Shown here one piece after another: positions 14,111-32,630 of a DNA stretch of 33,668 bases. The position numbers and the translations under genes are program-made. The notes beneath the pieces were generated by a model. That model searched no databases, had not been told where the DNA came from, and saw nothing but the letters and a program-made list of their open reading frames with translations. Each line of letters begins with the position of its first letter. Within the stretch, counting starts at the first letter, position 1. The DNA is from Pseudofrankia saprophytica. GTDB taxonomy: Bacteria > Actinomycetota > Actinomycetes > Frankiales > Frankiaceae. The stretch spans positions 6,407,020 to 6,440,687 of the forward strand of contig NZ_KI912266.1 in the NCBI RefSeq assembly GCF_000235425.2, given 5' to 3'.

Positions 14111-14193
14111 TGGAGCGCTCCCCACCGCTGTCATACCAAGGAGCGTAGCCGGGATACAGCCCACTCCCAGAACCGCCCCAAAGCTGTGTTGCT

Positions 14194-14413
14194 GGTTCGC
14201 TCCGTGCGGGCACGGCACTCCGGCCCCGTACTCGCTTCGCTCCCACGGGACCTCCGCGCCGCGGGGTTCCTGCCGGATCCGACGAAGTCGATCTGGGAGG
14301 TCCGCCTCCTCCGCTCACGTGCGCTGCGGCGACCTCCGCTGCGGCCCAACCCACGTCGCTTCACTCGTGGGCCGGGCCTCCGCGCAGGCGCGCCTCCGCG
14401 CCGCACGGTCACC
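14194..14413 (+). repeat. Modular GC-rich repeat, copy A
   Basis: Head GGTTCGCTCCGTGC, tail CACGGTCACC. It shares long stretches with copies B, C and D: the head hairpin CCGTGC-GG-GCACGG, the block CTCGCTTCGCTCCCACGGGA, CTCCGCTCACG, and a stem CCCACG-N10-CGTGGG (14350-14371) with loop TCGCTTCACT. Compared with the other copies it has about 40 extra bases near 14262-14303 containing a GAC-GAA-GTC hairpin. Together with the flanks it fills the gap between metF and the DUF4097-like gene; I see no other gene there. Confidence 0.8.
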
Positions 14414-14471
14414 TCTCACTTGACCGTTCAAGAGACCAGGTCAGGCCGGTGCCGGGGCCACATCCTGCAAC

Positions 14472-15173
14472 TCAGATCGGGCGGGTGCCGCCGGCGGCGG
14501 GGGTGCCGACGCGGACTGGGCCGCCGTGGCTGCGCACCAGGATGGCGCTTGGCGCGTCCGGGTCGGTGTCGACGTCGACGCGCGCCGGGCTCGCAGGGTC
14601 CGCGGACTCCACCTCGACGGCATAGCGGCCGTCCGGCAGCACGATGGTGATCGTCCCGGACCCGCCGGTGACCGCGAGCCGCCTCGGCTGGCCGGTGAAG
14701 TGCAGGCTGATGTCCCCGGCCGCGGCGCGCGCGGTGACCTCCGTCCCGGACAGCTCGCGCGCGGCGATCGTCGCCGTCTCGGTCACCAGCGCAAGGTCCC
14801 CCGCCGAGCCCCACATGCTGATCTCGCCGGCGCGCAGCTCGACGCGCGCCGGCGTCGCGCGCGGCAGCCGCAGCCGCAGCCGCGCCTCGCTCGTCTCGCC
14901 GTCCAGGCGCAGCGTCCCGTCGGCCACCGTGAGCCGGGGAAGGGCCTGGCCCACCCGGCGACGTACCGTCAGGTCGACCCGCGCGTCGGCCCGGTCGTCC
15001 TCGCCGATCTCGACTCGGCCGGCCATGAGTCGAACCTCGACGGCGCGTACCCCCTCGACCGTGCGCACGGCGGACACCGGCGGGCGGCGCAACAGCCGCA
15101 GCCCGCCGACCGCGAGCGCGAGGAACACGGCCGCGAGCACCACCACGAGCGCGTTGCCGACGGGACCGGACAC
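14472..15173 (-). CDS. Membrane-anchored DUF4097-like beta-repeat protein
   Basis: The protein is 233 aa. An N-terminal transmembrane segment (NALVVVLAAVFLALAVGGLR, residues ~6-26) is followed by Arg-Arg and then a long domain rich in short beta strands (VRAVEVRLMAGRVEIGED, ARVDLTVRRRV, VELRAGEISMWG, VTARAAAGDISLHF, GSGTITIVLPDGRYAVEVES). This periodic pattern resembles DUF4097-type putative adhesin or right-handed beta-helix domains; no catalytic motif is seen. The orientation (N-in or C-out) cannot be fixed. I chose the GTG at 15173 (GGAG, 7-8 bases upstream), immediately before the membrane segment. The gene lies between inverted copies A and B of the modular repeat. Confidence 0.65.
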   Translation of the reverse strand: MSGPVGNALVVVLAAVFLALAVGGLRLLRRPPVSAVRTVEGVRAVEVRLMAGRVEIGEDDRADARVDLTVRRRVGQALPRLTVADGTLRLDGETSEARLRLRLPRATPARVELRAGEISMWGSAGDLALVTETATIAARELSGTEVTARAAAGDISLHFTGQPRRLAVTGGSGTITIVLPDGRYAVEVESADPASPARVDVDTDPDAPSAILVRSHGGPVRVGTPAAGGTRPI

Positions 15174-15396
15174 GGGAATGCTCCACACAGGTATCAACGG
15201 GCATGTGCACGGACAGGACGGACGCATGGAGGCACGACGACCTCGGCTTGGTGACGTTACAGCGGCAAGCAACCGAGCTGGGAGCGAAGGCACACCTGTG
15301 CAGCGCCCCAGCCACGAGCGACGGGGTCCCTGCGGAATCGGCGAAGCCGATTCCGCAGGTCGTGCAAGCTCTCTACCAGCCCTGTGCTTCCGGGTT
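15174..15396. other. Gap without a gene, holding a repeat-tail fragment
   Basis: Upstream region of the DUF4097-like gene. It contains an isolated repeat-tail motif (GGTGACGTTAC at 15250-15260) and the perfect hairpin at 15329-15359. The open frames crossing it follow the repeat sequence and do not look like genes. Confidence 0.55.
15329..15359. repeat. Perfect 14-base hairpin with GAA loop
   Basis: The arms CCTGCGGAATCGGC and GCCGATTCCGCAGG close on a GAA triloop. The extra module in repeat copy A (CCTGCCGGATCCGACGAAGT and onward) has the same order of elements and the same GAA loop, so this hairpin looks like a separable module of the repeat family. It lacks a T-tract and is 187 bases from the nearest stop or start. 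Confidence 0.7.
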
Positions 15397-15709
15397 GGTG
15401 ACGTTCCAGCGCAAGGTGACCGTGCGGCGCGCAGGCGCGCCTCCGCGGAGGCCCGGCCCCGCGCGAAGCGACCTGCCCCGCAGGGATGGTTCCGGACCCG
15501 GTCGTCGTGGGTCGGTGACGTTCAGCGGTTGGTGACCGTGCTGGCGCGGAGGCGCGCCTCCGCGGAGGCCCGGCCCCGAGCGAAGCGAAGGGGTTGGGCC
15601 GCAGCGGAGGTCGCCGTAGCGCACGTGAGCGGAGGAGGACGGCGCGCGGAGGTCCCGTGGGAGCGAAGCGAGCACGGGGCCGGAGCGCGCCGCCCGCACG
15701 GAGCGAACC
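15397..15709 (-). repeat. Modular GC-rich repeat, copy B (with extra tail unit)
   Basis: Read on the minus strand from 15709: head GGTTCGCTCCGTGCGGGC, internal blocks shared with A, C and D, stem CCCC-N12-GGGG around the TCGCTTCGCT loop (15574-15593), GC-palindrome GGAGGCGCGCCTCC, and tail ending CGCTGAACGTCACC at 15514. A second partial unit follows (15397-15500) with the same tail (GGTGACGTTCCAGCGCAAGG on the plus strand). The head ends 19 bases before the crtI start, so the crtI ribosome site is directly outside the repeat. Confidence 0.8.
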
Positions 15710-15728
15710 ATGAAACAAAGGTGGCGGC

Positions 15729-17315
15729 GTGCGGACGGTGATCGGGCCGACGGACCATGTGGTGGTGGTCGGCGCGGGCCTGGGCGGACTGTCCGCCGCG
15801 CTGCGGCTGGCCGGAGCCGGCCGGCGGGTGACCGTGCTGGAGCGTGCCGACGTTCCCGGCGGGCGGGCCGGGGTATGGCGCGCCGGCGGCTACCAGTTCG
15901 ACACCGGCCCGACGGTGCTGACGATGCCGGACCTGATCGCCGACGCGTTCGCCGCCGTCGGCGAGGACCTCGCCGACTGGCTGACGCTGCGCCCCCTCGA
16001 CCCGATGTACCGGGCGCGCTTCGCCGACGGGTCGACGCTCGACCTGCGGGCCGACCCGGAGGCGACGGCCGCCGGCATCGAGGCGCTGTGCGGCCCGGCG
16101 GAGGCCGCCGGCTATCGGCGATTCGTGGAGCTGGTCAGCGCGATCTACCGGGCCGAGATGCGCGACTTCATCGACGCCCAGCTCGACTCGCCGCTGGCGC
16201 TGCTGCGCCCGTCGCTCGCGCGCCTGGCCGCGCTCGGGGCCTTCCGCCGGCTCGACCGGCTGGTCGGCGCCCACCTGCACGACCCGCGGACCCGCCGGCT
16301 GTTCTCGTTCCAGGCGATGTACGCCGGCCTGGCGCCCAGCCAGGCGCTCGGGGTCTACGCGGTGATCTCCTACATGGACTCGGTGGCGGGCGTGTTCCAC
16401 GCCGAGGGCGGCATGCACGCGGTGCCGGCGGCGATGGCGGCGGCGGCCGCCAAGCACGGCGTGACGCTGCGTTACAGCACCGCTGTCACCGGGGTGGAGG
16501 TCCGGGGCGGGCGGGCGGTGGCGGTGCGCACCGCCGACGGTGAGCGGATCGCCGCCGACGTGGTGGTGCTCAACCCCGACCTGCCGACCGCCTACCGGGA
16601 GCTGCTGCCGCCGGCCCTGACCCCGGCGCGGCTGGCCCGGCTGCGCTACTCGCCCTCGTGTTTCCTGCTGCTCGCGGGCGCGGGCGCCACCGCCCATCCG
16701 GACGCCGGCCGCCCGGAGGCCGCCGCCCAACACACGATCCACTTCGGCCACGCCTGGCGGCGGACGTTCGCCGAGATCATCGGGCGGGGCGAGCTGATGA
16801 CCGACCCGTCGTTCCTGGTCAGCGTCCCGTCGGTGACGCAGCCTGGGCTCGCGCCGGCGGGCGGGCACGCGTTCCACGTGCTGTTCCCGACGCCGAACAC
16901 GGTGGCCGGGGCGGGGCTGGACTGGTCGGTGATCGGTCCGCGCTACCGCGAGGAGGTCGTCGCGGCCCTGGAGAGCCGGGGATACCCGGGTTTTGGCGCT
17001 TCGGTGGCAGTGGAGTCGATCACCACACCGGCGGACTGGCAGGCGCGCGGGCTGACCGCTGGCGCGCCCTTCGCGGCGGCGCACACCTTCCGTCAGACCG
17101 GCCCGTTCCGGCCCGGAAACCTGGTTCCCGGCCTGGAGAACGTCGTGTTCACCGGCAGTGGCACCCGCCCGGGCGTCGGCGTGCCGATGGTGCTGATCTC
17201 CGGTCGACTGGCGGCGGAACGCATCATCGCGAGCCGCCACGCCCGGCTACTCCCGGCCGGTACGCCCATGTCCCTAACCGCCTTAAGAAACCGTAACCGC
17301 CTTAAGAATCCGTAA
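15729..17315 (+). CDS. crtI: Phytoene desaturase CrtI
   Basis: The protein is 528 aa and a flavoenzyme that introduces the desaturations converting phytoene towards lycopene. It has the N-terminal FAD motif HVVVVGAGLGGLSAALRLAG, then ADVPGGRAGVWRAGGYQFDT. Family blocks follow, including YAVISYMDSVAGVFHAEGGM with GGMHAVPAAM, and the C-terminal ENVVFTGSGTRPGVGVPMVL. The start is a GTG at 15729 with AAGGTGG 4-5 bases upstream, immediately after repeat copy B. The final ~14 residues come from a 19-base tandem duplication that includes a TTA codon. The moxR gene follows 73 bases later. A crt pathway needs CrtE, which is not in this window. Confidence 0.9.
   Translation: MRTVIGPTDHVVVVGAGLGGLSAALRLAGAGRRVTVLERADVPGGRAGVWRAGGYQFDTGPTVLTMPDLIADAFAAVGEDLADWLTLRPLDPMYRARFADGSTLDLRADPEATAAGIEALCGPAEAAGYRRFVELVSAIYRAEMRDFIDAQLDSPLALLRPSLARLAALGAFRRLDRLVGAHLHDPRTRRLFSFQAMYAGLAPSQALGVYAVISYMDSVAGVFHAEGGMHAVPAAMAAAAAKHGVTLRYSTAVTGVEVRGGRAVAVRTADGERIAADVVVLNPDLPTAYRELLPPALTPARLARLRYSPSCFLLLAGAGATAHPDAGRPEAAAQHTIHFGHAWRRTFAEIIGRGELMTDPSFLVSVPSVTQPGLAPAGGHAFHVLFPTPNTVAGAGLDWSVIGPRYREEVVAALESRGYPGFGASVAVESITTPADWQARGLTAGAPFAAAHTFRQTGPFRPGNLVPGLENVVFTGSGTRPGVGVPMVLISGRLAAERIIASRHARLLPAGTPMSLTALRNRNRLKNP
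17276..17313 (+). repeat. 19-base tandem duplication at the 3' end of crtI
   Basis: AACCGCCTTAAGAAACCGT (17276-17294) is followed directly by the same 19 bases with one change (17295-17313). Because 19 is not a multiple of three, the two copies are read in different frames and the second supplies the stop TAA. The embedded CTTAAG sites lie ~75-110 bases ahead of moxR and could be operator or promoter sequence. Confidence 0.85.
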
Positions 17316-17388
17316 ACAAACAGGACGAGCGTGGCTGGACCTCGGCTTTCCCCGCCGGTTTCCCGGCCCGGCTGGGAGAATGGGACCC

Positions 17389-18489
17389 ATGGAGGAACGG
17401 GCGGAGACGCTGGCCGCACCGGACACGACCAGCGATGCGGCACTGCTGGAACGTGCGCTGTTCGAGGTGAAGAAGGTCATCGTCGGCCAGGACCATATGG
17501 TCGAACGGATGCTGGTCGCGCTGCTGGCGCGCGGGCACTGCCTGCTCGAGGGCGTGCCCGGCGTGGCGAAGACGCTGGCCGTGCAGACGCTGGCCGACGT
17601 CGTGGGCGGCAGCTTCGTGCGCATCCAGTTCACCAACGACCTGGTCCCGTCCGACATCGTCGGAACCCGGGTCTACCGGGCCAGCCGGGAGACGTTCGAC
17701 ATCGAGCTCGGGCCGATCTTCGCGAACTTCGTCCTGGCCGACGAGATCAACCGGGCGCCGGCGAAGGTGCAGTCGGCGCTGCTGGAGGTCATGTCGGAGA
17801 AGCAGGTCTCGCTCGGCGGCGTCACCCATCGGCTGCCGGTCCCGTTCCTGGTGCTGGCCACCCAGAACCCGATCGAGTCCGAGGGTGTCTACCCGCTGCC
17901 CGAGGCGCAGCGCGACCGGTTCCTGATGAAGGTCAACGTCCCGTACCCCACGCCGGGCGAGGAGCTTGAGATCGTCCGGCGGATGGGGGTGCGCCCGCCG
18001 AGAGCGGACCGGGTGCTCGACCCGAAGACGCTGGTGCGCCTGCAGGAGCGAGCCGACGACGTCTTCGTCCACCACGCGATCATGGACTACGCCGTCCGTC
18101 TCGTGCTGGCGAGCCGCACCCCGGAAACCTACGGCCTGCCCGACCTCGCCGGCCTGCTCACCTACGGCGCGTCGCCACGCGCCTCGCTCGGCCTGATCGC
18201 CGCGGCGCGGGCGCTCGCGCTGCTGCGCGGGCGGGACTACGCCGTGCCGGACGACGTCCGCGCGGTCACGCTCGACGTCATGCCGCACCGGCTCGTGCTC
18301 TCCTACGACGCGCTGGCCGACGGCCTGAGCTCCGACGAGATCGCCGCCCGCATCGTCGCCGGCGTGCCTGCCCCGCAGGTCGCCCCCCGCCAGCAGCCGG
18401 GTGGGCGCGTCCCGGTCGGCGCCGGTCGCTGGTCCCCGAACGTCAGCAACGGCTTTCCCGAGTACCAGGACGAGGACCGGCCGGCATGA
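17389..18489 (+). CDS. MoxR-family AAA+ ATPase
   Basis: The protein is 366 aa, a MoxR-type AAA+ chaperone of the kind that works with VWA-domain partners to mature or insert metals or cofactors into proteins. Walker A is LLEGVPGVAKT, Walker B is FVLADEINRAP, sensor 1 is FLVLATQNPIESEGVYPLPE, and PEAQRDRFLMKV supplies the arginine-finger region. C-terminal AAA_lid helices follow, and then a short Pro/Gly tail. Start: the ATG at 17389 has GGGAG about 10 bases upstream; the ATG at 17380 is too close to that site. The stop overlaps the DUF58 start (ATGA). This gene set sits between crtI and crtB in the same direction. Confidence 0.9.
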   Translation: MEERAETLAAPDTTSDAALLERALFEVKKVIVGQDHMVERMLVALLARGHCLLEGVPGVAKTLAVQTLADVVGGSFVRIQFTNDLVPSDIVGTRVYRASRETFDIELGPIFANFVLADEINRAPAKVQSALLEVMSEKQVSLGGVTHRLPVPFLVLATQNPIESEGVYPLPEAQRDRFLMKVNVPYPTPGEELEIVRRMGVRPPRADRVLDPKTLVRLQERADDVFVHHAIMDYAVRLVLASRTPETYGLPDLAGLLTYGASPRASLGLIAAARALALLRGRDYAVPDDVRAVTLDVMPHRLVLSYDALADGLSSDEIAARIVAGVPAPQVAPRQQPGGRVPVGAGRWSPNVSNGFPEYQDEDRPA

Positions 18490-19865
18490 CCGATCCCCGG
18501 CGCCGCCCGGGCTGGCTGACTCCCCGTGGCGCGGTGATGTCCGCCCAAGGGGGCGGCCCTCCCCCCGTGCCCGGCGTCGGTCGGCCGTGGGCCGGGCCCT
18601 CCCCGGACCCGGACCTGGTGGCCGGGACGACCGGTCTCGCGCCGGCCGGGACCGGGGGCACCGCCGGCACGGGTGACGCGGCCGGCCGGGCGCACGCGCG
18701 GGCCACCGACCCCGTGGTCGAGCGGACGCTGCGCCACCTGGAGCTGACCGTGCTGCGCCGGCTCGACGGGCTGCTGCTCGGCGACTACCTCGGCATCCTT
18801 CCCGGCCAGGGCAGCGAGAAGGCCGAGAGCCGCGAGTACCAGTTCGGCGACGACGTCCGCAGGATGGACTGGGCGGTCACCGCCCGCACGACGGTCCCGC
18901 ACGTGCACGACCTGATCGCCGACCGCGAACTGGAGACCTGGGCACTGGTCGACCTGACCGCGAGCCAGAACTTCGGCAGCGCCCGCTGCGAGAAGCGCGA
19001 GCTCGCCATCGCCGCCACCGCCGCCGTCGGCTTCCTGACCGCGCGGACCGGCAACCGGATGGGGGCGATCGCGCTCACCGACACCGGCACCCGGCTGATC
19101 CCGGCGAGGCCCGGCCGCGCCGGCCTGCGCGCGCTGCTGCGCACACTGCTGTCCCTCGAGCCCGCCGCCTCCGCCGAGGCGCCGCGACCGGGCATGTTCG
19201 GGCGCCGCGCCCCTGGCGCCACCCGGACGGCCCGCGGCACCGGCCAGCCGCCGGCTCCCACCCACCAGCAGCCGCCCCCGACGCACCGTCCCAAGGCGCC
19301 AGGGAGCCCCCGGCCGGGCACCGACCTCGCGGCGGCGATCGAGGCGCTGCGCCGGCCCGTGCGCCGGCGCGGCCTGGTCGTCGTGATCTCCGACTTCCTG
19401 TCCGTCGACCTCGCCTGGGCGCGCCCGCTGCGGGCGCTCGGCGGCCGGCACGACGTGCTCGCCGTCGAGGTGGTCGACCCGCTGGAGCTGTCGCTGCCGA
19501 ACGTCGGGCCGCTCGCGGTCGTCGACCCGGAGACGGGCGAGCTGTTCGACCTGCCCACCCACTCCCGCCGCTTCCGCGAGCGCTACGAGGCGGCCGCGGC
19601 CAGCCACCGCGCCGAGGTGGCCGCGGCGCTGCGCGGCGCCGGCGCGGCGCACCTGCGGCTGCGCACCGACAAGGACTGGCTGATCGAGATCGCCCGGTAC
19701 GCGGCGGCGAGCCGGCGCGGGCAGGCCGCGCTGCGCGGCGCCGGGGGTGCCAGCGGCGCCCGGGGTGGGGGCGCCGCCAGGGCACGCGCCGCCAGGGAGA
19801 CGGCCCGCCAGCACCGCCCCGCGGCCACGGTCCGCCCGATCCGAACAGGCGGCACGACGACATGA
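18486..19865 (+). CDS. DUF58 domain protein (MoxR partner)
   Basis: The protein is 459 aa. The first ~75 residues are Gly/Pro/Thr-rich and probably flexible. The DUF58 signature REYQFGDDVRRMDWAVTART is at about 117-136, followed by ELETWALVDLTASQNFGS, which is the VWA-like metal-site strand with D-L-T-x-S instead of D-x-S-x-S. A second Pro/Ala/Gln-rich linker (about 235-280) separates the two halves of the domain, an unusual insertion. The C-terminal ~40 residues are Ala/Gly/Arg-rich. DUF58 proteins are regularly encoded with moxR and VWA genes. It overlaps both neighbours by four bases, so stoichiometric expression is likely. Confidence 0.85.
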   Translation: MTDPRRRPGWLTPRGAVMSAQGGGPPPVPGVGRPWAGPSPDPDLVAGTTGLAPAGTGGTAGTGDAAGRAHARATDPVVERTLRHLELTVLRRLDGLLLGDYLGILPGQGSEKAESREYQFGDDVRRMDWAVTARTTVPHVHDLIADRELETWALVDLTASQNFGSARCEKRELAIAATAAVGFLTARTGNRMGAIALTDTGTRLIPARPGRAGLRALLRTLLSLEPAASAEAPRPGMFGRRAPGATRTARGTGQPPAPTHQQPPPTHRPKAPGSPRPGTDLAAAIEALRRPVRRRGLVVVISDFLSVDLAWARPLRALGGRHDVLAVEVVDPLELSLPNVGPLAVVDPETGELFDLPTHSRRFRERYEAAAASHRAEVAAALRGAGAAHLRLRTDKDWLIEIARYAAASRRGQAALRGAGGASGARGGGAARARAARETARQHRPAATVRPIRTGGTTT

Positions 19866-20821
19866 GCTTCCTGTCCGCCCACTGGCTGTGGCTGCTGTTC
19901 GCCGTCGCGGCGCTGCTCGCCTGGCACATCGTCGCCTCGGTCCGCCGCCGCGGCTACGCGGCCCGGCTCGCGTCCGCCTCCACGCTCGCCTCGGTGCTGC
20001 CGATGCGGCCGCAGTGGTGGCGCCGGCACGTCCCGGCCGCGCTGATGCTGCTCGCGCTCACCGGGATGGTCTTCGCGCTCGCCCGCCCGGCCAAGGCACA
20101 GCGGGTGCCCCGGGAGCGGGCCACGATCATGCTCGCGATCGACGTGTCGAACTCGATGGCGGCCACCGACATCACCCCGAACCGCCTGGCCGCGGCCAAG
20201 CAGGGCGCCCAGGCGTTCGTCGACCAGCTGCCGCCGCGGATCAACCTGGGGCTGGTGTCCTTCTCCGGCAGCGCGGCGGTGCTGGTGCCGCCGACCACCG
20301 ACCGCGAGGCGATCCGCACGGCGATCAACGGCCTGCAGCTCGGCCCGGCGACCGCGATCGGCGAGGGTATCTACGCCTCGCTACAGGCGATCAGCAGCGC
20401 GGGCGAACGGCTGACGGAGGCCAGCCAGTCCCCGCCGCCGGCGGCGATCGTGCTGCTCTCCGACGGCGAGACGACCCGGGGCCGGCCCAACACCCAGGCC
20501 GGCCAGGCCGCCAAGGACGCGCACGTCCCCGTCGACACGATCGCCTACGGCACCGCCGGCGGCACGCTCGACGTCGGCGGGCAGCTGATCCCGGTACCGG
20601 TGAACGAGCCGGCACTGCGCCAGATCGCCGAGCAGACCGGCGGCTCGCACCACCGGGCCACCTCGGGCGACGAGCTCACCTCTGTGTACAAGGGCCTGGG
20701 CAGCTCGATCGGCTACCGCAAGGAGTTCCGCGAGATCACCCCGGCCTTCGTCGGCGCCAGCCTCGCGCTCGGCCTGGCCGCCGGCGCCCTGGGCCTCGCC
20801 TTCGGCCGCCGGCTCCCGTGA
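19862..20821 (+). CDS. VWA-domain membrane protein (MoxR partner)
   Basis: The protein is 319 aa. N-terminal helices at about 6-25 and 57-74 and a C-terminal helix (ASLALGLAAGALGLAFG) bracket a von Willebrand A domain. Its MIDAS site is intact: D94, S96 and S98 in MLAIDVSNSMAATD, with LLSDGETTRG supplying the later Asp. This is the BatA-like layout. It probably sits in the membrane with the VWA domain exposed on one face and is worked on by MoxR. The stop TGA overlaps the crtB start (GTGA), so a chaperone partner is coupled to phytoene synthase. Confidence 0.88.
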   Translation: MSFLSAHWLWLLFAVAALLAWHIVASVRRRGYAARLASASTLASVLPMRPQWWRRHVPAALMLLALTGMVFALARPAKAQRVPRERATIMLAIDVSNSMAATDITPNRLAAAKQGAQAFVDQLPPRINLGLVSFSGSAAVLVPPTTDREAIRTAINGLQLGPATAIGEGIYASLQAISSAGERLTEASQSPPPAAIVLLSDGETTRGRPNTQAGQAAKDAHVPVDTIAYGTAGGTLDVGGQLIPVPVNEPALRQIAEQTGGSHHRATSGDELTSVYKGLGSSIGYRKEFREITPAFVGASLALGLAAGALGLAFGRRLP

Positions 20822-21753: not shown

Positions 21754-21819
21754 AGCCCCTCACCGGAACGATCCCGACGATGACGCACAGGCGTCGACTC
21801 TGCCGCCGGGGTCGGCTGT

Positions 21820-21841
21820 ATCGTCTGTCGATCGTCTGTCG
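21820..21841 (+). repeat. Perfect 11-base tandem repeat upstream of serS
   Basis: ATCGTCTGTCG occurs twice head to tail, about one helical turn apart, in the 246-base gap between crtB and serS. It may be a regulator site for serS. No T-box or tRNA-like element was recognised in this gap. Confidence 0.6.
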
Positions 21842-21999
21842 CGCGCCATGGGCCTCGACGGGCGAGACACGCGAGACCCGGCTGATAGCGTGACCATGAA
21901 TCGACCTCACGTACCAGGTCGGACGGCCAGCCTGCCCGCAGCCGAGCATGCGCCGGGCGAAAGGCGGTCGGAACCTTTCATCGGGAACGACGGGACTTC

Positions 22000-23262
22000 A
22001 TGCTCGACAAGCGCTTCATCCGGGAGAACCCCGACGCCGTGAAGCAGGCGGTGGCCGTCAAGGGAATCGACCTCGACGTGGACGAGCTGCTCCAGCTCGA
22101 CCAGGACAACCGCAAGCTGCAGTTCGAGGTCGACACGGCGCAGGCCAGCCGCAAGTCCCGGTCCAAGGAGTTCGCCAAGGCCGACGCGGCCCGCAAGGCC
22201 GAGCTGCGGGCCGAGCAGGCCGACTTCGACAGGAAGCTGACCGAGCTGCGCGAGCAGCTGTCCGCGACCGGCGCCCGGCTGAACGAGCTGATGCTGGCGA
22301 CGCCGACCATCCCGTGGGAGGGCGCACCGGTCGGCCCGGACGAGTCCGCGAACACGGTCGTGCGCACCTGGGGCACCCGGCCCGAGTTCGACTTCGCTCC
22401 GCTCGACCACGTCGACCTCGCGGAGAAGCGCGGCTGGGCCGAGTTCGCTCGGGCGCGACGGGTCGCCGGTGAGCGCGCCTACGTGCTGTGTGGCGACGCG
22501 GTGCTGTTGGAGCGGGCGCTGCACTCGTACGCCCTCGACCTGCTGCACGGCCAAGGCTTCCGGTTGATGTCGGTGCCCTCGCTGGTCAAGGAGGCCCCAC
22601 TGGTCGGCACCGGCATGCTGCCGAAGGGCCGCGCCGAGATCTACGAGATCCCGGCCGACGACGCCTTCCTCGCCGGTACCGCCGAGGTATCGCTGGTCGG
22701 CCTGCATGCCGGCGAGATCCTCGACGCCGCGCGGCTGCCGATCCGGTACGCGGGCATCTCGCCGTGCTTCCGCCGGGAGATCGGCAGCGCGAGCCGGGAC
22801 GTGCGCGGGCTGCTGCGCGTCCACCAGTTCGAGAAGGTCGAGCAGTTCGTCATCTGCGCCAACGACCAGGACGAGTCGGACCGCTGGCACGCGGAGCTGC
22901 TCGGCACCGCCGAGTCGATCCTGCAAGCCCTGGGACTGGCCTACGAGGTCGTCGAGTGCGCCACCGGCGACATGGGCGTCGGCAAGTATCGGATGAACGA
23001 CATCAACACCTGGTTCCCGTCGCTCGGGATGTTCCGGGAGACGCACAGCTGCTCGTCGCTGAAGGACTGGCAGGCGCGGCGAGCGAACGTGCGCTACCGG
23101 ACCACGGATGGCGAGATCCACTTCGCGTACACCCTGAACAACACCGCTGTCGCCACCCCCCGGCTGCTGGCCGCCGTGCTGGAGAACTTCCAGACGGCCG
23201 ACGGCGCCCTGCGGGTACCCGAGGTGCTCCGCCCCTACCTGGGCGGCCGCGACACCCTGTGA
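22000..23262 (+). CDS. serS: Seryl-tRNA synthetase, Thermus-like subtype
   Basis: The protein is 420 aa and a class II synthetase that charges tRNA-Ser. Residues 1-100 form the tRNA-binding coiled-coil arm. The catalytic motifs are present: T-A-E at 227-229 in AGTAEVSLVGLHAGEIL, motif 2 at CFRREIGSASRDVRGLLRVH and QFEKVEQ, then ATGDMGVGKYRMNDI, ETHSCSSLKDWQARRANVRY, and motif 3 NNTAVATPRLLAAVLENFQ with R388. From memory this NNTA-ATPR motif 3 and the ETHSCS-DWQARRAN segment are those of Thermus thermophilus SerRS, whereas most actinobacterial SerRS read like GSGLAVGRT there. It may therefore be a second, laterally acquired or resistance-type SerRS; whether another serS exists elsewhere is unknown. 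The ATG has a GACGGGA-like site. Confidence 0.85.
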   Translation: MLDKRFIRENPDAVKQAVAVKGIDLDVDELLQLDQDNRKLQFEVDTAQASRKSRSKEFAKADAARKAELRAEQADFDRKLTELREQLSATGARLNELMLATPTIPWEGAPVGPDESANTVVRTWGTRPEFDFAPLDHVDLAEKRGWAEFARARRVAGERAYVLCGDAVLLERALHSYALDLLHGQGFRLMSVPSLVKEAPLVGTGMLPKGRAEIYEIPADDAFLAGTAEVSLVGLHAGEILDAARLPIRYAGISPCFRREIGSASRDVRGLLRVHQFEKVEQFVICANDQDESDRWHAELLGTAESILQALGLAYEVVECATGDMGVGKYRMNDINTWFPSLGMFRETHSCSSLKDWQARRANVRYRTTDGEIHFAYTLNNTAVATPRLLAAVLENFQTADGALRVPEVLRPYLGGRDTL

Positions 23263-23581
23263 GGCCGACCCGGGCTCCCGGCGTGAGGCTCTCCTGCCCC
23301 GCCGGGATTCCCGGCGAAGCGCCATCGCTCAATGATCGGAACGATGCCACGGATCCGGTAACTTCGCCGACGGGTACCGTCGGGCGGTCCGTGCCTCCAA
23401 GGTTTCGCTAAGGCGACCCCAAGGCAATGCTTAGCCGGATTCAACAGGCTTGGGCGGGTCGGCGAGCCGGGCGGGCCGAAGGGCATGCGGAAATGATCTT
23501 CTTTCGCGTGCCCGGCGGCCATGGTCACTCAGGGACGCGGACAGCAGCGGCAGGCGTGTGTAGGGCAGGGAGGCCCGGTCG
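23263..23581. other. Gap after serS with two hairpin-forming sites
   Basis: No gene is seen. CCGACGG-GTA-CCGTCGG at 23367-23383 is a perfect 7-base stem. GCTAAG (23407-23412) pairs with CTTAGC (23430-23435). The first could terminate serS, and the second lies 147 bases ahead of the cyclophilin GTG and could be an operator. A good ribosome site (AGGGAGG) lies just before the cyclophilin start. Confidence 0.5.
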
Positions 23582-24508
23582 GTGAGCAACTCGAAGACAC
23601 GGCGACGGCGCGAGCTGGAGATGGCCAGAGCGCAGCGGGCGGCGGAGCGGCGGCACGCCGCCCGTCGCCGACGGCAGCGGGTCATCACCATCGTCGCGGC
23701 CGCGCTCGTGGTCGTGCTCGGTGGCACGATCACGGCCGTCGTGCTGGCCACCACCGGTGGCGACGGCAGCCCCACCGCGAGCCCGACCCCGAGCGCGAGC
23801 GCGGCCGGCGCCACCACCAAGGTCGGCGACTGTGTCTACACCAAGGACACCTCCGGCCAGGCACCGGCGAAGGAGGTCTCGATGCCCGCCGCGGCGCCGG
23901 CCGTGAGCACCAAACCGGCGACGATGACCATCAACACGAACCTCGGCACGATGGTCGCGACTCTCGACCCGGCCAAGGCCCCGTGCACGGTGCACGCGCT
24001 GTACGCGCTGGTGCAGCAGAAGTACTTCGACGACACCCCGTGTCACCGGGAGACCTTCGGGCCCGAGGCCGGCATCTACGTGCTGCAGTGCGGCGACCCG
24101 ACCGGCACCGGCTCGGGCAGCCCCGGGTTCACCTACAAGAACGAGAACACCGCGGGCGTCAACTACAACCGCGGCGTGCTCGCCATGGCGAACGCCGGCG
24201 CCGACACCAACGGCAGCCAGTTCTTCATCAACTACGCCAACCCGAGCGAGGAGGGCGCCAAGGCCCTCGCCGGCGGCTACACCGTCTTCGGCCAGATCAC
24301 CCAGGGCCTGGACATCCTCGACAAGATCACCAGCCCGGGCGTCGACGAGGGCGGCTCGGACGGCGCCCCCGTCACCAAGCCCCAGATCACCTCGATCACG
24401 ATCGACCAGGAGCAGCCCGCGGCCGCCACCGGTTCCGCGTCGCCGGCTCCCACCACGAGCCCGGCCACGTCACCGACGCCGACCGCCACCGCCACTCCGT
24501 CGTCCTGA
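23582..24508 (+). CDS. Membrane-anchored cyclophilin-type peptidyl-prolyl isomerase
   Basis: The protein is 308 aa. Residues 1-33 are highly basic (RRRRELEMARAQRAAERRHA), followed by one transmembrane helix (VITIVAAALVVVLGGTITAV, 34-53), a Ser/Thr/Pro-rich linker, and a cyclophilin domain (~110-290). Recognisable segments are ATMTINTNLGTMVATLDP, YFDDTPCHRETFGPEAGIYV with LQCGDPTGTGSGSPG, and GVLAMANAGADTNGSQFFIN; the R and Q positions of the catalytic region are kept. The domain should therefore lie outside the membrane and isomerise proline bonds of exported proteins. The C-terminus is a Thr/Pro/Ala tail. The start is a GTG with AGGGAGG upstream. The domain order is that of the widespread actinobacterial extracytoplasmic cyclophilins. 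Confidence 0.88.
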   Translation: MSNSKTRRRRELEMARAQRAAERRHAARRRRQRVITIVAAALVVVLGGTITAVVLATTGGDGSPTASPTPSASAAGATTKVGDCVYTKDTSGQAPAKEVSMPAAAPAVSTKPATMTINTNLGTMVATLDPAKAPCTVHALYALVQQKYFDDTPCHRETFGPEAGIYVLQCGDPTGTGSGSPGFTYKNENTAGVNYNRGVLAMANAGADTNGSQFFINYANPSEEGAKALAGGYTVFGQITQGLDILDKITSPGVDEGGSDGAPVTKPQITSITIDQEQPAAATGSASPAPTTSPATSPTPTATATPSS

Positions 24509-24535
24509 CGGGACGGCGGGCCCGAAGTACCCAGG

Positions 24536-24567
24536 CCGGGGCTGACCTCCGCGGAGGTCAGCCCCGG
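24536..24567. terminator. Perfect 32-base palindromic terminator
   Basis: CCGGGGCTGACCTCCG is followed immediately by its exact reverse complement. It lies between the convergent stops of the cyclophilin (24508) and helicase (24586) genes and can work in both directions. Confidence 0.8.
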
Positions 24568-24585
24568 TGGCGTCTCACGGGTCCG

Positions 24586-26418
24586 CTAAGAGGCGTTCCA
24601 CTTCCGGATGGTGTCGATCCTGGTACGCAGCTGGGCGGCGGTGGCCTGGCCGCTGGGCGGCCCGCCGCAGGTGCGGCGAAGCTCGGCGTGGATCATGCCG
24701 TGGGGGCGGCCGGTGCGATGGTTGTTCGCCGCGACCAGCCGGTTGAGCTCCTTGCGCAGCTCGCCGATCACCTCGTGGACCGGGCGGCTGCCGTCCTCCT
24801 CCGCCGCCAGCGAGCCGACCTGGGCCGGCGGGGTGACGCCCGCCGCGATGTCCTTGGCCGCCTTGGACTTGCGGGCGCGCTCGGCGGCGAGCTGCGAGGC
24901 CTGGCGCTGGCGCAGCAGGGTGGTCACCTGGTCGGGCTCCAGCAGGCCGGGCAGGCCCAGGAAGTCCTCTTCCTCGGCCGAGCCCGCCGCGGCCGGCGCG
25001 CCGAACTCGCCGCCGTCGAAGATGACCCTGTCCAGCTCGGCGGAGGAGTCCAGCGCCGTGAACGGTGAGTCCGGCTTGTCGGTGGTGTCGCGGCGCCGGT
25101 TGGCCTCGCGCAACGCGTCGTCGTCGAACCCCTCCGGCTCGCGCAGCGGCTTGTCCAGCGCGTGGTCGCGCTGGACCTCCATCTGGCCGGCGAGATCGAG
25201 CAGTACGGGGACGCTGGGCAGGAACACCGACGCGGTCTCCGCCCGCCCGCGACCGCGCACGAACCGGCCGACGGCCTGCGCGAAGAACAACGGCGTCGCC
25301 ACCGACGTCGCGTAGACGCCGACCGCCAGCCGCGGCACGTCGACGCCCTCGCTGACCATCCGCACCGCGACCATCCAGCGGTCCGTCGAGCGGCGGAACG
25401 CCTCGATCCGGTCGCTGGCGGTCGGGTCGTCGGACAGCACGACCGTGGGCTCGGTGCCGCTGATCCGGCGCAGCAGCCCGGCGTAGGCGCGGGCGTTCGC
25501 GTGGTCGGTCGCGATCACGAGGCCGCCCGCGTCCGGCATGCCGCCGCGGCGGACCTGGGTGAGCCGCATGTCGGCCGCGGCGAGCACCGCGGGGATCCAG
25601 TTGCCCCGCGGGTCGAGCGCCGTGCGCCACGCGGCGGCCGTCTGCTCGTTGTTCAGCGGCTCGCCGAGCCGGGCGGACAGCTCGGCGCCGGCGCTGGTCC
25701 GCCAGCTCATCTCGCCCGAGTACGCGAGGAAGAGCACCGGGCGCACGACGCCGTCGCGCAGCGCCTCGGAGTAGCCGTAGGAGGAGTCCGCGACGCTGCG
25801 CGTCACCCCGTCCTGGCCCGGCAGGTAGGTGACGAACGGGATCGGGTTCACGTCGGAGCGAAAGGGCGTCCCCGTCAGCGCCAGGCGGCGGGTGGCCGGG
25901 CTGAACGCCTCCCGGGTCGCCTCGCCCCAGGACAGCGCGTCGCCAGCGTGGTGGATCTCGTCGAGGATCACCAACGTCCGCCGGGCCTTGGTGCGGGCAA
26001 AGTGCAGCGCCGGGTGCGCGGCCACCTGGGCGTAGGTGAGCACGACGCCGTCGTAGTCACGCGAGGTCGCGCCGGCGGAGTTGCGGAAGTTCGGGTCGAG
26101 GGAGATACCGGCGCCGGCGGCGGCGTCCGCCCACTGGCGCTTGAGGTGCTCGGTCGGCGCGACGACCGACACCGCCGTCACCACGCCGGCGGCGAGCAGC
26201 TCGGCGGCGGCCGTGAGGGCGAACGTCGTCTTGCCTGCTCCCGGCGTCGCGACCGCGAGGAAGTCGCGGCCACCCGCGGCCGAGGTCGCGCGGTAGCGCT
26301 CCAGCGCCACCCGCTGCCACTCCCGCAGCGGGCGTGCCTGGGTTCGCGGGGCGGGCACGGTCTGGGCCGCCTGCCGCGGTATCGGCCGGGTTGGCTCGGA
26401 TTGGTGGCGGACGTTCAC
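24586..26418 (-). CDS. DEAD/DEAH-box helicase (superfamily 2)
   Basis: The protein is about 610 aa. SF2 helicase motifs are in order: Q-like PLREWQRVALERY, Walker A VATPGAGKTTFAL, motif Ia VVAPTEHLKRQW, DExH motif LVILDEIHHAGD, motif III LALTGTPFRSD, motif V RMVSEGVDVPRLAVGVYAT and motif VI FAQAVGRFVRGRGR. A C-terminal region of ~150 residues, charged and Ala/Glu-rich, resembles that of actinobacterial helicases often annotated only as DEAD/DEAH helicases. The nucleic-acid substrate is unknown. The start is the GTG at 26418 (VNVRHQSEP); the frame continues upstream another 104 codons but with weak coding character. Convergent with the cyclophilin gene. Confidence 0.85.
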   Translation of the reverse strand: MNVRHQSEPTRPIPRQAAQTVPAPRTQARPLREWQRVALERYRATSAAGGRDFLAVATPGAGKTTFALTAAAELLAAGVVTAVSVVAPTEHLKRQWADAAAGAGISLDPNFRNSAGATSRDYDGVVLTYAQVAAHPALHFARTKARRTLVILDEIHHAGDALSWGEATREAFSPATRRLALTGTPFRSDVNPIPFVTYLPGQDGVTRSVADSSYGYSEALRDGVVRPVLFLAYSGEMSWRTSAGAELSARLGEPLNNEQTAAAWRTALDPRGNWIPAVLAAADMRLTQVRRGGMPDAGGLVIATDHANARAYAGLLRRISGTEPTVVLSDDPTASDRIEAFRRSTDRWMVAVRMVSEGVDVPRLAVGVYATSVATPLFFAQAVGRFVRGRGRAETASVFLPSVPVLLDLAGQMEVQRDHALDKPLREPEGFDDDALREANRRRDTTDKPDSPFTALDSSAELDRVIFDGGEFGAPAAAGSAEEEDFLGLPGLLEPDQVTTLLRQRQASQLAAERARKSKAAKDIAAGVTPPAQVGSLAAEEDGSRPVHEVIGELRKELNRLVAANNHRTGRPHGMIHAELRRTCGGPPSGQATAAQLRTRIDTIRKWNAS

Positions 26419-26916
26419 GGGCTCTGACTCTATGGGGCACCACCGACAACCGGCCGCCCCCGGGGCAGGCGCCGCGCCGGAGCCCACCCGTTCGAGGCCC
26501 GGCGGCGGCTGGCGGCCAGGCGGCGGCCGGCCGGGCGGGCGCGCCTCACGGTGCGCGGCAGGTGACCGGGCCGGCCCGACCTGCCCGCGGCGGACGCACG
26601 GGCCGTGACCGCACGGGCTGTGACCGGCGACGAAGTGGAGTGATCTGCACCACATCGGGCGCACGAGGATTTCCACAGCACGGTAGCCGGCACGAGCGTT
26701 GGTGACGACCATCTGCACGACAGGATGCACCTGCAGTCACGCTACGCCACGCTAAGGCCACAGCCCGAATACGTAGCGCCGAACGCGCGGCTACATTCTG
26801 TTTGCCGAAACCCAGGCCTGTACGTTCCGTGAACAATTCCGGAGCAGGTACTCGTGGACTCGCCTTTCCAAGCGGTTACGCTGATCGTGTCCATTGCCTG
26901 ACCTGGAGGTTGCGCG
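26419..26916. other. Divergent gap between helicase and XRE regulator
   Basis: No convincing gene. The stretch 26730-26880 is less GC-rich than its surroundings. GTAGC (26773-26777) and GCTAC (26790-26794) form a weak inverted repeat, and GTTC-CGT-GAAC at 26824-26834 is a short palindrome. Either could be a control site. The XRE gene has a good ribosome site (TGGAGG) just before its ATG. Confidence 0.5.
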
Positions 26917-28620
26917 ATGCCGGCACAAGTCGGGACCGAGGCTCGTCCCATTGCGACTGAACCGCGTCGCGTGCTGGCCGCGGACCGGGGCCGCGCCCCG
27001 GCTGCCCGAGGCGCCCACCCGGGTCAGGGCAACCGTGGCCAGAACACCGCCCTGCCGGGCGCGCCTGGCCAGCACACCGCGGGCCGCGGCGGGCACGGCC
27101 AGAGCGTTCACCACCAGCCCGACCGGTCACGCCCGGCCATCCACCCGGCCGATTCCGAGATGGACGCGGCGAGGCCGATGCCCGCGCGAACTCCGAATGG
27201 CCGGCTGCGGACCTGCCGGGAGGAGAAAGGCTGGTCCCAGGAACGGCTCGCCGTCGAGCTGCGACGTTTCGCGGTTCTGCACGAGGGCCGGGAGGCCGGC
27301 GTCACCGGCAACATGATCTGCAAGTGGGAAAAAGGCGACAAAAAGCCGAGCCTGCGTTACCAGCGGCTGTTGCGAGCCCTTTTCCACCGCTCATCGGCGG
27401 AGCTTGGATTCATCGACGACGACCCAACATCGAATGGGCCCACCGCAGGCATGGCCGCGGGAATTCTGGGTATAGCGGACGTCGTGGACCCGCACGTAGT
27501 GAACACCATGGCCACGAACAGCTCCGGAAACCATGTCGACCGCACGTCGTCGATTGTCCTGCGCACCGGCGAGGACGCTCGCGGCATTCCGGTCGAGCGG
27601 CGCGGATTCCTTCGGATGATGGCGGCCGGTGGGGTCGCCGTCGTCCCGGTCGGCGCCACCGTCGCCGCGACGGGAGCCGCCGACGAGGCGCCCTGGGACC
27701 GGCTCTCGGCGGCGCTTCGCCAGCGCAGCCCCGTCACCCCCGAGCTCGCCCAGCAGCTCAGCCAGCACACCGCCGGTCTTTTCGGCCTGGAAGAGCGGGT
27801 GCCCGCGCGCACGCTGCTGGGCCGCGTCGCCGGCCACCTGTGCACCCTCACCCAGCTGCTCGAGTCGACGACCCGCTCACCGATCCGGCGCGAACTCGCC
27901 AGCACCGCGGGCGAGACGGCGGCGCTCGCCGGCTGGCTCGCGTTCGACATGAACGACAACCCCTCGGCGCTCGCGTATTACCGGGTCGCCATCGAGGCCG
28001 CCAAGGAGGCCGACGACCCGGCGCTGTGGGCCTGCGTCCTCGGCTACGAGAGCTACCAGCCGGGCGCGGCCGGCCGCCCCGACCAGGCCTGCGCGCTGCT
28101 CGCCGAGGCGCAGCGCAGGATCGGGCGTGGCGCGAACCCACTGACCAGGTCGTGGCTCGCCGCCAGGGAGGCCGAGGAGCAGGCGGCGCGCGGCGACGGC
28201 CGCGCGGCGAGCGCCGCGATCGACCGGGCCCAGGAGGCGTTCGCGAAGGCCAACACGCCGGACCGGGTCTGGACTGGCTTCTTCGACCGCGGCCGCCTCG
28301 ACGGCCTGCGGGTGACCACCATGACGCGGCTGCGCCGCCCGACCGCCGCGTACGCGGCGGCGAGCGACGCGCTGCGCGCCGCCGGCCCCGCCGCCACCAA
28401 GAAGCGGTCCCTCCTGCTCGCCGACATCGCCGAGGTGCACATCCAGCGACGCGACATCGAGAGCTCCTGCCGGTTCGCGGCCGATGCCCTCGCCATCGTC
28501 GCGCAGACGGACTTCTCCCTCGGCCTCGGCCGTGTGCAGCGGGTCCGCGAGCGTCTCGCCCCGTGGCAGTCCACCGTCGCCGTCCGCGACCTCGACGAGC
28601 AGCTGCGCGCGCTCGTCTAA
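26917..28620 (+). CDS. XRE-family regulator with TPR-like C-terminus and internal twin-arginine segment
   Basis: The protein is 567 aa. Residues 1-80 are Gly/Gln/His/Pro-rich. An XRE helix-turn-helix spans about 95-158 (RLRTCREEKGWSQERLAVEL, then GNMICKWEKGDKKPSLRYQR). At 228-254 an RRGFLRMMAAGGVAVV segment combines a twin-arginine-like RRxFL motif with a hydrophobic stretch, like a Tat signal placed inside the protein. Residues 260-567 are helical repeats (ETAALAGWLAFDMNDNPSAL, AYYRVAIEAAKEADDP, LLLADIAEVHIQRRDIESSC) typical of actinomycete XRE-TPR regulators. The ligand is unknown. The ATG at 26917 has TGGAGG 7 bases upstream; a start at 27160 would remove the low-complexity part. The stop TAA is followed after two bases by repeat copy C. 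Confidence 0.8.
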   Translation: MPAQVGTEARPIATEPRRVLAADRGRAPAARGAHPGQGNRGQNTALPGAPGQHTAGRGGHGQSVHHQPDRSRPAIHPADSEMDAARPMPARTPNGRLRTCREEKGWSQERLAVELRRFAVLHEGREAGVTGNMICKWEKGDKKPSLRYQRLLRALFHRSSAELGFIDDDPTSNGPTAGMAAGILGIADVVDPHVVNTMATNSSGNHVDRTSSIVLRTGEDARGIPVERRGFLRMMAAGGVAVVPVGATVAATGAADEAPWDRLSAALRQRSPVTPELAQQLSQHTAGLFGLEERVPARTLLGRVAGHLCTLTQLLESTTRSPIRRELASTAGETAALAGWLAFDMNDNPSALAYYRVAIEAAKEADDPALWACVLGYESYQPGAAGRPDQACALLAEAQRRIGRGANPLTRSWLAAREAEEQAARGDGRAASAAIDRAQEAFAKANTPDRVWTGFFDRGRLDGLRVTTMTRLRRPTAAYAAASDALRAAGPAATKKRSLLLADIAEVHIQRRDIESSCRFAADALAIVAQTDFSLGLGRVQRVRERLAPWQSTVAVRDLDEQLRALV

Positions 28621-28622
28621 TT

Positions 28623-28820
28623 GGTTCGCTCCGTCCGGGCACGGCGCTCCGGCCCCGTACTCGCTTCGCTCCCACGGGACCTCCGCGCCGTGTCCTCCTC
28701 CGCTCACGGGCGCTCCGGCGACCTCGCTGCGGCCTCCCCACGTCGCTTCGCTCGTGGGGAAGCCTCCGCGAGGCGCGCCTCCGCGCCAGCGCGGTTGCGA
28801 TCCGCTGAACGTCACCAACC
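28623..28820 (+). repeat. Modular GC-rich repeat, copy C
   Basis: The head GGTTCGCTCCGTCCGGGCAC starts three bases after the XRE stop. It includes CTCGCTTCGCTCCCACGGGA and the stem CCCCACG-N10-CGTGGGG (28736-28759) around TCGCTTCGCT. The tail is CGCTGAACGTCACCAACC at 28803-28820. It faces copy D. Confidence 0.82.
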
Positions 28821-28840
28821 CGAAACCACAACGCTCGTAT

Positions 28841-28911
28841 GGACACGTCGCTTCGCTCGTGTGGCGGCTTTCACCCCTGTCTAGACACTCCACGAGCGCA
28901 GCGAAGTGTCC
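28841..28911. repeat. Long imperfect hairpin between repeats C and D
   Basis: Arms 28841-28864 (GGACACGTCGCTTCGCTCGT and on) and 28890-28911 pair with a few mismatches around a 25-base loop. The arm contains the same TCGCTTCGCT motif as the repeat modules. It could block read-through between the outward-lying genes. Confidence 0.6.
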
Positions 28912-28935
28912 CGACGGACAGGCCTGCTTCGGCTA

Positions 28936-29131
28936 CGTGACGTTCAGCGCAAGGTGACCGTGCGGGCGCGGAGGCGCGCCTCGCGGAGGCCCGACCCACG
29001 AGCGAAGCGAGGTGGGCCGGGCCGCAGCGAGGTCGCCGGAGCGCCCGTTCGCGGAGGAGGACGGCGCGCGGAGGTCCCTTGGGAGCGAAGCGAGTAACGG
29101 GCCGTAGCGCGCCGCCCGCACGGAGCGAACC
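28936..29131 (-). repeat. Modular GC-rich repeat, copy D
   Basis: Minus-strand copy with head GGTTCGCTCCGTGCGGGC at 29131 and tail near 28936 (CGTGACGTTCAGCGCAAGG on the plus strand). The stem CCCAC-N12-GTGGG (28995-29016) is present around the TCGCTTCGCT loop. It forms an inverted pair with copy C. Confidence 0.82.
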
Positions 29132-29163
29132 AGCAACAACCTTCCACCCCAACCCCGGAGCCT

Positions 29164-29209
29164 GCGAAGCGAGTACGGGCCGGAGCGTGCTGCCTGGACA
29201 CAGCGAACC
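29164..29209 (-). repeat. Head fragment of the modular repeat
   Basis: On the minus strand it reads GGTTCGCTGTG, then GCACGCTCCGGCCCGTACTC and GCTTCGC, i.e. a degraded head of the repeat, just upstream of copy D's head. The rest of the gap to 29368 is less GC-rich and I see nothing else in it. Confidence 0.65.
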
Positions 29210-29368
29210 AGAAATACAACCCAGCCCGTGGAAAAACCGGTCCGCCGGCGCCGGATACCGCATTCTTACCTGTCCGGCGGCAGCGCATCCCGACTCCGAC
29301 GCGGACTCACCGAGCTCCCATTGTGAACGGAGCCCGAGGCTGAAAGACCGAGCCCGGAAAATGAGCGT

Positions 29369-32594: not shown

Positions 32595-32630
32595 TCTGGT
32601 TCGCTCCGTGCCCGCACGGCGCGAACCAGA
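32595..32630. terminator. Near-perfect hairpin abutting the RIS-ACT stop; mini form of the repeat head
   Basis: The arms TCTGGTTCGC-T-CCGTGC and GCACGG-C-GCGAACCAGA are separated by CC, so 16 base pairs form with one mismatch. It starts one base after the stop codon of the RIS-ACT gene (minus strand), the position of a terminator. The arm is the same GGTTCGCTCCGTGC that heads the modular repeats. Confidence 0.75.

Follow-up and report, generated by a model that had tools for sequence, protein, structure and literature searches.

A family of structured intergenic repeats in Pseudofrankia, probably a non-autonomous mobile element

Why would a genome carry, between its genes, repeated hairpins whose stems change in sequence while their pairing is kept? 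The question is raised by a 33,668-nt stretch of Pseudofrankia saprophytica (C1:6407020-6440687 of the 9.98-Mb genome, which consists of the two contigs C1 and C2), henceforth referred to as the window. The original prediction, made from the letters of this stretch, described a family of hairpin repeats of about 200 bases with four long copies (A to D) and fragments. It proposed selection for structure in RNA or DNA and offered two identities, non-autonomous mobile elements or structured regulatory RNAs. Our analysis supports selection for structure. We think it probable, at moderate confidence, that the family is a non-autonomous, REPIN/BIME-like interspersed intergenic element of Pseudofrankia that is selected as a folded single strand, more likely single-stranded DNA (ssDNA) than RNA. 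A complete element consists of two arms of about 200 nt set head to head around a spacer and in most cases measures 480-625 bp. Reduction or rearrangement of this unit accounts for the single arms, tandem tail modules and mini-palindromes. Read from tail to head, one strand of each arm forms two long imperfect hairpins with mostly G-N-A (GNA) loops, the idiom of sheared G.A pairs, and carries a nearly invariant 19-nt head at its 3' end.

The repeat family is real. A profile built from 145 full copies located four long copies in the window (E 5e-56 to 9e-48), together with three fragments. The window also has one 32-nt mini-palindrome. The head motif GGTTCGCTCCGTGC has six window matches at ≤2 mismatches where 1.14 are expected, although 1 of 100 shuffles also gave six; TCGCTTCGCTC has 12 matches at ≤1 mismatch (1.57 expected; 0 of 100 shuffles). 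The sequence motifs that were said to be common to the four long copies are shared unevenly: TCGCTTCGCT is exact in all four, the head in A, B and D only, CGCTGAACGTCACC in B and C, and GGAGGCGCGCCTCC in B alone. Copies C and D are the arms of one 511-bp inverted-pair element; copy A has a second hairpin module inserted at about 14262-14304 and a diverged tail. The same genome holds at least 77 matches at E ≤ 0.001 (40 of 200 candidate places were scored) and 99 head sites at ≤1 mismatch, versus 2 for the reversed pattern.

We searched 58 genomes, including that of the window, and detected strong matches in 7 of 8 Pseudofrankia genomes and in none of the 50 genomes outside the genus. Of these 50, 42 had no match at all and 8 had a single match of E about 1e-4 or weaker. 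Scanning the exact pattern TCCTCCTCCGCTCACGNGCGCT over 84,980 species genomes, a list that may omit records of the window's own genome, returned 69 stretches. All 69 are in Pseudofrankia sp. BMG5.36, P. asymbiotica, 'Frankia nepalensis' CN7 and 'Frankia' sp. AgB1.9. Judged by these sequence searches, the repeat family appears to be restricted to the genus Pseudofrankia.

We aligned 145 distinct copies without N, drawn from 188 full profile hits. Their consensus fold has two hairpins (fold arms 1 and 2) on the strand running from tail to head, for which RNAalifold gave -86.7 versus -50.2 for the complement. The original prediction had quoted the other strand, complementary to the structured one. 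Sixty of the 145 copies belong to the window's own genome, and excluding 10 copies longer than 218 nt and leaving out 2 more yielded an own-genome alignment of 48 copies. Here, 98.8% of 2411 cells form standard pairs, two-sided change occurs at 18 of 51 pairs (10.2 in shuffles), and the covariation score is 0.206, versus 0.071 when shuffled and ≤0.029 when the partner was slid by 1-3 columns. None of 500 shuffles, which ignore relatedness and use a structure derived from the same sequences, reached the observed pairing, two-sided-change or covariation values. In a structure-free G-test of 4680 column pairs, ranks 1-4 are structure pairs, the top five consist of those plus one neighbour of a pair, and structure pairs make up 13 of the top 20. 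Stem alleles include CGGCGCGC/GCGCGCCG, CACGGCGC/GCGCCGTG and CACCGCGC/GCGCGGTG, and the inner stem has wholly swapped sequences such as GGTAGCCCG/CGGGCTGCC.

These genome-wide copies thus bear out the predicted selection for structure, with covariation that exceeds both the shuffled and the slid controls. The stems that had been named for copies A to D (CCCACG/CGTGGG, CCCC/GGGG, CCCCACG/CGTGGGG and CCCAC/GTGGG) are present as written. Their pairing is kept, but the compensated structure comprises two covarying fold arms and not a single main stem. In 37 pair elements the two mates have a similarity of 0.823, below the 0.849 of copies drawn at random from one genome. We therefore conclude that each arm of the element folds on itself. 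A long hairpin between the two mates was rejected on the same comparison and on the position of the covarying pairs, which lie within each arm.

We assessed which strand carries the structure from half-changed pairs. Where one strand alone needs the structure, they are expected to read G.U there in preference to A.C. In 43 mainly Watson-Crick pairs across the 145 copies, G.U occupies 160 cells, A.C 12 and other mismatches 53. Counted by pair, G.U prevails in 20 and A.C in 5. The 48 own-genome copies gave 21 G.U versus 8 A.C. Neutral correction between stem sides, or a need for structure on both strands (a cruciform), would give equal numbers of G.U and A.C, so the counts argue for structure on one strand, mainly the tail-to-head strand. 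Corresponding counts between copies with matching flanks include pairs that are mostly G.U and hence were not used as a strand test.

The loops bear on the form of the folded strand. The apical loop of fold arm 1 is GNA in 144 of 145 copies (GCGAAGC in 133, GCGCAGC in 9) and that of fold arm 2 in 118 of 145 (GCGAAGC in 115). All 145 copies have GNA/GNA as the internal loop of arm 2, and at least 141 and at least 137 have it at the two internal loops of arm 1. Over all profile hits, including those from overlapping loci, GC-GNA-GC accounts for 36.8% of the 1371 GC-NNN-GC 7-mers on the structured strand, versus 6.9% across the fetched loci. RNAs prefer GNRA or UNCG tetraloops, whereas the apical loops here are mostly GNA triloops (262 of 290). 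A passage in PMC6582339 describes the GCGAAGC fragment as an extraordinarily stable DNA hairpin, and passages in PMC4513846 and PMC7205883 describe GCA, GGA or GNA loops closed by sheared G.A pairs in Streptomyces telomeres. This loop repertoire favours ssDNA over RNA, though not as proof.

Head-to-head pairs occur in 38 gaps and span 417-1385 bp, 29 of them 480-625 bp. Both ends read exactly TGGTTCGCTC...GAGCGAACCA in 35 of the 38 pair elements, within a loose outer consensus CTGTGTTTC. Among these elements, 263 of 703 comparisons align over >80% of the shorter one, and whole pairs recur end to end at different sites of the same genome. Two such elements (L011 and L020) agree at 89.3% over 552 columns, and the window pair at 28622-29132 agrees with another 511-bp element of its genome (L005) at 87.4% over 516 aligned columns. 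At homologous gene pairs across species, many sites are occupied in common, and three, judged by eye, are empty in one species. We prepared 20 candidate sites for a test of empty sites and ran 11. All 11 chosen sites, occupied in other species, were without the element in the window's own genome by profile search, and the cleanest is a 7-nt gap versus 321 nt. Such presence/absence polymorphism and the recurrence of whole pairs favour the first of the two predicted identities, a non-autonomous mobile element. Direct target duplications were not detected in the 38 pair elements: the mean longest direct match was 1.42 at the edges (1.56 shuffled) and 3.18 up to 18 nt outside them (3.36 shuffled).

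To place the repeats relative to genes, we called genes with a purpose-written codon-usage script and reduced 178 head edges to 168 units, 7 of which lack a neighbouring gene on the head side. The proposal that copies sit only between genes nearly holds, with 2 overlaps of >60 nt with a predicted gene among the 168 units. Convergent gaps are enriched among element-bearing gaps (39 of 123, versus 60 of 443 others; p = 1.2e-5) and divergent gaps are depleted (13 of 123 versus 82 of 443; p = 0.04). The 443 element-free gaps hold repeats from overlapping loci, and with the 417 de-duplicated gaps the values are p = 2e-6 for convergent and p = 0.04 for divergent gaps. Of 92 heads that face a stop codon, 64 are no more than 13 nt away from it, where uniform insertion over gap bases would place 7.2%, and 27 of the 69 heads that face a start codon lie within 18 nt of it. 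Copies share a single orientation in 54 of the 71 same-strand gaps; in 31 of these the structured strand has the sense of the genes and in 23 the opposite sense (p = 0.34). This count excludes the 17 gaps with both orientations and does not merge gaps that match between species.

Several observations weigh against a mobile element that is selected as folded ssDNA. Heads hugging stop codons are not explained by a plain mobile element without target choice. Matching sites of different species are counted among the 263 collinear comparisons, and the lack of an own-genome copy in the fetched loci was the reason for picking the 11 empty sites. We found no mobilising enzyme and caught no new insertion. 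For the strand asymmetry, a single pair supplies 60 of the 160 G.U cells, and the own-genome counts are just 21 to 8; moreover, tolerance of G.U fits RNA as well as ssDNA. The loop columns of fold arm 2 read GCCAGGC in 20 and GCGACGT in 7 of the 145 copies, which are not GNA. Finally, with stock parameters, copy B has a z of -5.0 with RNA energies versus -3.1 with DNA energies (-3.7 and -2.1 for its complement). Its DNA-parameter fold opens the base of arm 1 into another hairpin, off the consensus, whereas its RNA fold is the full two-arm consensus.

Three of these features, namely the tolerance of G.U above A.C, the RNA fold of copy B and the heads close to stop and start codons, also speak for a structured RNA. 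Under this explanation the tail-to-head strand is transcribed and acts either as a cis element of the mRNA (in stability, termination or translation) or as a small-RNA family. We consider it possible but unlikely. Since orientation relative to same-strand genes shows no significant bias, a cis-acting regulatory RNA, the second predicted identity, is less likely and is not favoured here. The presence of copies is polymorphic at homologous gene pairs, and the prevailing GNA triloops, as described above, are not the tetraloops of RNAs. Rfam returned no family at gathering score in the window or in 13 loci, and relaxed E-values added just five weak matches far under the gathering scores. A group II intron architecture was rejected on the same absence of an Rfam match at gathering score in the window and the 13 loci. 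Reverse transcriptase genes are present in 7 of 8 genomes of the genus, and an RNA route with a reverse transcriptase acting in trans is conceivable. As a separate observation, contig C1 of one relative (G002, 6.9 Mb) holds six equal-scoring reverse transcriptase genes (RVT_1, 135.2 bits, 448-aa frames).

The exact ends of 35 of the 38 pair elements, and whole elements that recur at different sites, are also what a classical miniature inverted-repeat transposable element (MITE) would leave. The repeat would then derive from a DDE insertion sequence without being autonomous itself, and its terminal inverted repeats would begin TGGTTCGC. It resembles MITEs in being short, non-autonomous and intergenic with inverted ends. 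We nevertheless find this origin rather doubtful. No direct target duplication was found at the edges or up to 18 nt outside them, and terminal repeats need no internal covariation, whereas the internal structure here is kept on one strand. Reading the fetched loci, with six long gaps inspected by eye, we noticed no autonomous copy or transposase between heads, although no systematic search was made.

Copies at a shared site provide a view of how the sequences change. We identified 54 flank-matched copy pairs, some of them matched through repeat flanks, and used the 28 with flank identity >85% over ≥110 nt to measure similarity. These shared-site copies are 0.861 alike, versus 0.845 for random copies of different genomes, and in 56 comparisons, some of which were made against just 1-4 copies, the counterpart at the same site came out as the best match 13 times. 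Because shared-site copies are hardly more alike than random ones, it seems that a site persists while conversion or re-insertion replaces its sequence. When flank-matched copies are compared, changes on both sides that keep the pair form the largest class (219 of 418). Both observations agree with arm correction without selection, in which template switching in quasi-palindromes, together with gene conversion between copies that seem to exchange sequence, changes the two sides of a stem together. As a full explanation this is improbable. Such correction is blind to strand and predicts equal G.U and A.C, against the 160 to 12 overall and 21 to 8 in the own genome, and it does not predict the conserved GNA internal loops or the nearly invariant unpaired head. 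Arm correction can still have helped to spread the changes.

We compared the family to known interspersed repeats. The likeness to REPIN and BIME elements lies in the high copy number, the intergenic location, the inverted pairs with a spacer, and the presence of mosaics and singlets. Passages on those elements report compensatory changes in BIME/REP hairpins (PMC3116915) and termini of REPIN/BIME that adjoin coding regions and often supply the stop codon (PMC3733652). Pseudofrankia arms differ in length (about 200 nt versus 20-40 for REP) and in folding on themselves, whereas REPIN members pair with each other. The head end reads TGGTTCGC, without the GTAG or CGTC tag of REP; the tail motif CGCTGAACGTCACC contains CGTC, at a tail end that is not sharply defined. 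The Pfam model Y1_Tnp (Y1/RAYT) had no match in the 7 element-bearing genomes, and its sole match among the 8 genomes of the genus was in G007, the genome without the element. Mobilisation by RAYT/IS200 was rejected on this result, and an IS200/IS605-type ssDNA element was set aside since the Y1 transposase was not found in the element-bearing genomes.

ERIC and bcr1-type repeats are intergenic, 100-200 nt long and have RNA-like folds. The Pseudofrankia family is similar to them in size, location and fold, but they belong to unrelated taxa. A plasmid search returned one weak match (66 nt, 77%) in a Rhodococcus plasmid, and a phage search returned none. We also observed exact 21-nt matches to a stretch of the head hairpin, CCCGTACTCGCTTCGCTCCCA, at internal places of two Rhodococcus plasmids, at an E of 0.5 that is compatible with chance. 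Hairpins of this dispersed GNA type may be widespread among actinobacteria. Judging from the listings of literature searches, we recognised no paper as describing this Pseudofrankia repeat, and we do not claim that it is not in print.

The GNA loops invite a further comparison. According to a passage in PMC7276702, Rhodococcus invertron telomeres are centred on the motif GCTXCGC, and one in PMC4513846 describes hairpins with sheared G.A loops in the 3' overhang of Streptomyces telomeres. Read inward, Rhodococcus ends have GCTNCGC centres on the 5' strand, which yield GCGNAGC (GNA) loops on the strand that ends 3', and the element loops have the same idiom and polarity as two Rhodococcus ends. 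At one end of a linear Rhodococcus plasmid (L205) stands GAGTCGCTTCGCTCCTC, of which TCGCTTCGCTCC is shared with the element in the same polarity. In DNA-parameter folds, the two Rhodococcus ends formed a GNA apical loop just once each, and the one Streptomyces plasmid end examined (L204) has no GCTNCGC. Invertron telomeres sit at the ends of linear replicons, whereas the Pseudofrankia copies are dispersed at internal places of C1 and C2. Searches for Tap (NF047542) gave matches at the level of the helix-turn-helix in 5 of 8 genomes and none over the cut-off, and a Tpg-candidate query, run without a positive control, gave no match. We therefore rejected membership among invertron telomeres, given the internal copies and the absence of a Tap match over the cut-off, and kept the likeness. 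By analogy, the elements might be related to actinobacterial telomeres, as miniature mobile versions of them, or might mimic their function. The pair would resemble a tiny linear replicon whose two 3' strands, with GNA-capped hairpins, are bound by a telomere-type protein, and it would spread via a single-stranded intermediate without RAYT or DDE transposases. We give this extension little credence.

The reading that we prefer, a non-autonomous interspersed element selected as a folded single strand, can be put as a mechanism. The strand, probably ssDNA exposed in replication or transposition, would be recognised by a protein of the host or of the element, and the head would be the processed 3' end of the recognised strand. 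The pair would be copied or exchanged through a hairpin-DNA form, and selection would act on the ability to be copied or converted. The mobiliser would be something other than a Y1/RAYT transposase visible to the Pfam model.

The spread of the family over the genome is uneven. The stretch of C1 between 3.0 and 6.4 Mb, a third of the genome, holds none among the matches listed and 11 of the 99 head sites, some of them probably by chance. It is not centred on dnaA, at 1.41 Mb, and is possibly a younger accessory region. Splitting the 76 head sites of C1 at dnaA and an assumed terminus at 6.4 Mb gave 45 versus 31 and no significant replication-strand bias (p = 0.14); C2, whose orientation is not known, was omitted from this count.

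The copies and parts in the window are given in the table. Copy B has its head 18 nt ahead of the predicted start of an open reading frame (ORF) at 15729-17315, and the left edge of the pair element lies 1 nt past the stop codon of an ORF that ends at 28620.

Table. Repeat copies and their parts in the window (window coordinates)
Feature	Position	Strand	Remarks
Copy A, single arm	14193..14432	+	profile E 8.6e-48; head at 14193; structured strand is minus
Second, more diverged tail-module repeat behind copy B	15242..15327	-	profile E 7.9e-10
Nested second hairpin repeat, 44 nt	15320..15363	.	occupies the apical loop position of a tail module
Tail-module repeat behind copy B	15390..15475	-	profile E 5.6e-16
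Copy B, single arm	15507..15710	-	profile E 5e-56; head at 15710; structured strand is plus
Copy B, fold arm 1 on the structured strand	15544..15622	+	long imperfect hairpin; GNA/GNA internal loops; GCGAAGC apical loop
Copy B, fold arm 2 on the structured strand	15636..15695	+	hairpin; GGA/GGA internal loop; GCGAAGC apical loop
Copy B, head, read on the structured strand as GCCCGCACGGAGCGAACCA	15692..15710	+	nearly invariant 3' end
Complete head-to-head inverted-pair element, 511 bp	28622..29132	.	copies C and D as arms
Copy C, left arm of the inverted pair	28622..28825	+	profile E 3.8e-55
Copy D, right arm of the inverted pair	28927..29132	-	profile E 6e-55
Head fragment adjoining copy D	29163..29210	-	profile E 4.6e-6
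Mini-palindrome of two heads, TGGTTCGCTCCGTGC ... GCGAACCA	32597..32628	.	32 nt; reduced copy

Other repeat modules accompany the family. A second hairpin repeat of about 44 nt with the core AATCGGCTTCGCCGATT is found at 15320-15363 of the window and in L008, L039, L041, L062, L169, L119, L127, L030 and L156; the core has 11 exact matches in the own genome and none for the reversed control. Judged by eye, its contexts are apical loops of the main element that read GCTTCGC, whether these belong to a head hairpin, an arm-1 hairpin or a tail module, as if it inserts into or replaces these loops. Near the base of fold arm 2 in copy A (at about 14262-14304), and in both arms of L058, a related module is inserted, GACCTCCCAGATC ... 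GATCCGGCAGGAACCCC, and similar pieces lie elsewhere in L096, L119 and L147. Another recurrent outer module, like GGTCGGGCGGGAAGGTTGTTGC, stands next to the head, often between two tandem heads (L011, L026, L061, L104, L117, L125, L133 and others). Within one element of L058 (1772-2125), the tail module is repeated four times head to tail with a period of 89 bp.

The significance of the family lies in several directions. REP-type high-copy intergenic hairpin repeats are explained by RAYT, and here a large structured family is present in genomes in which no RAYT was found. The comparison also connects repeats scattered over a genome with the hairpin idiom seen in actinobacterial telomeres. The inventory of swapped stems makes the strand, the structure of the arms and the recognition rule directly testable, and the persistence of sites with turnover of their sequence at homologous gene pairs offers a handle on ectopic conversion.

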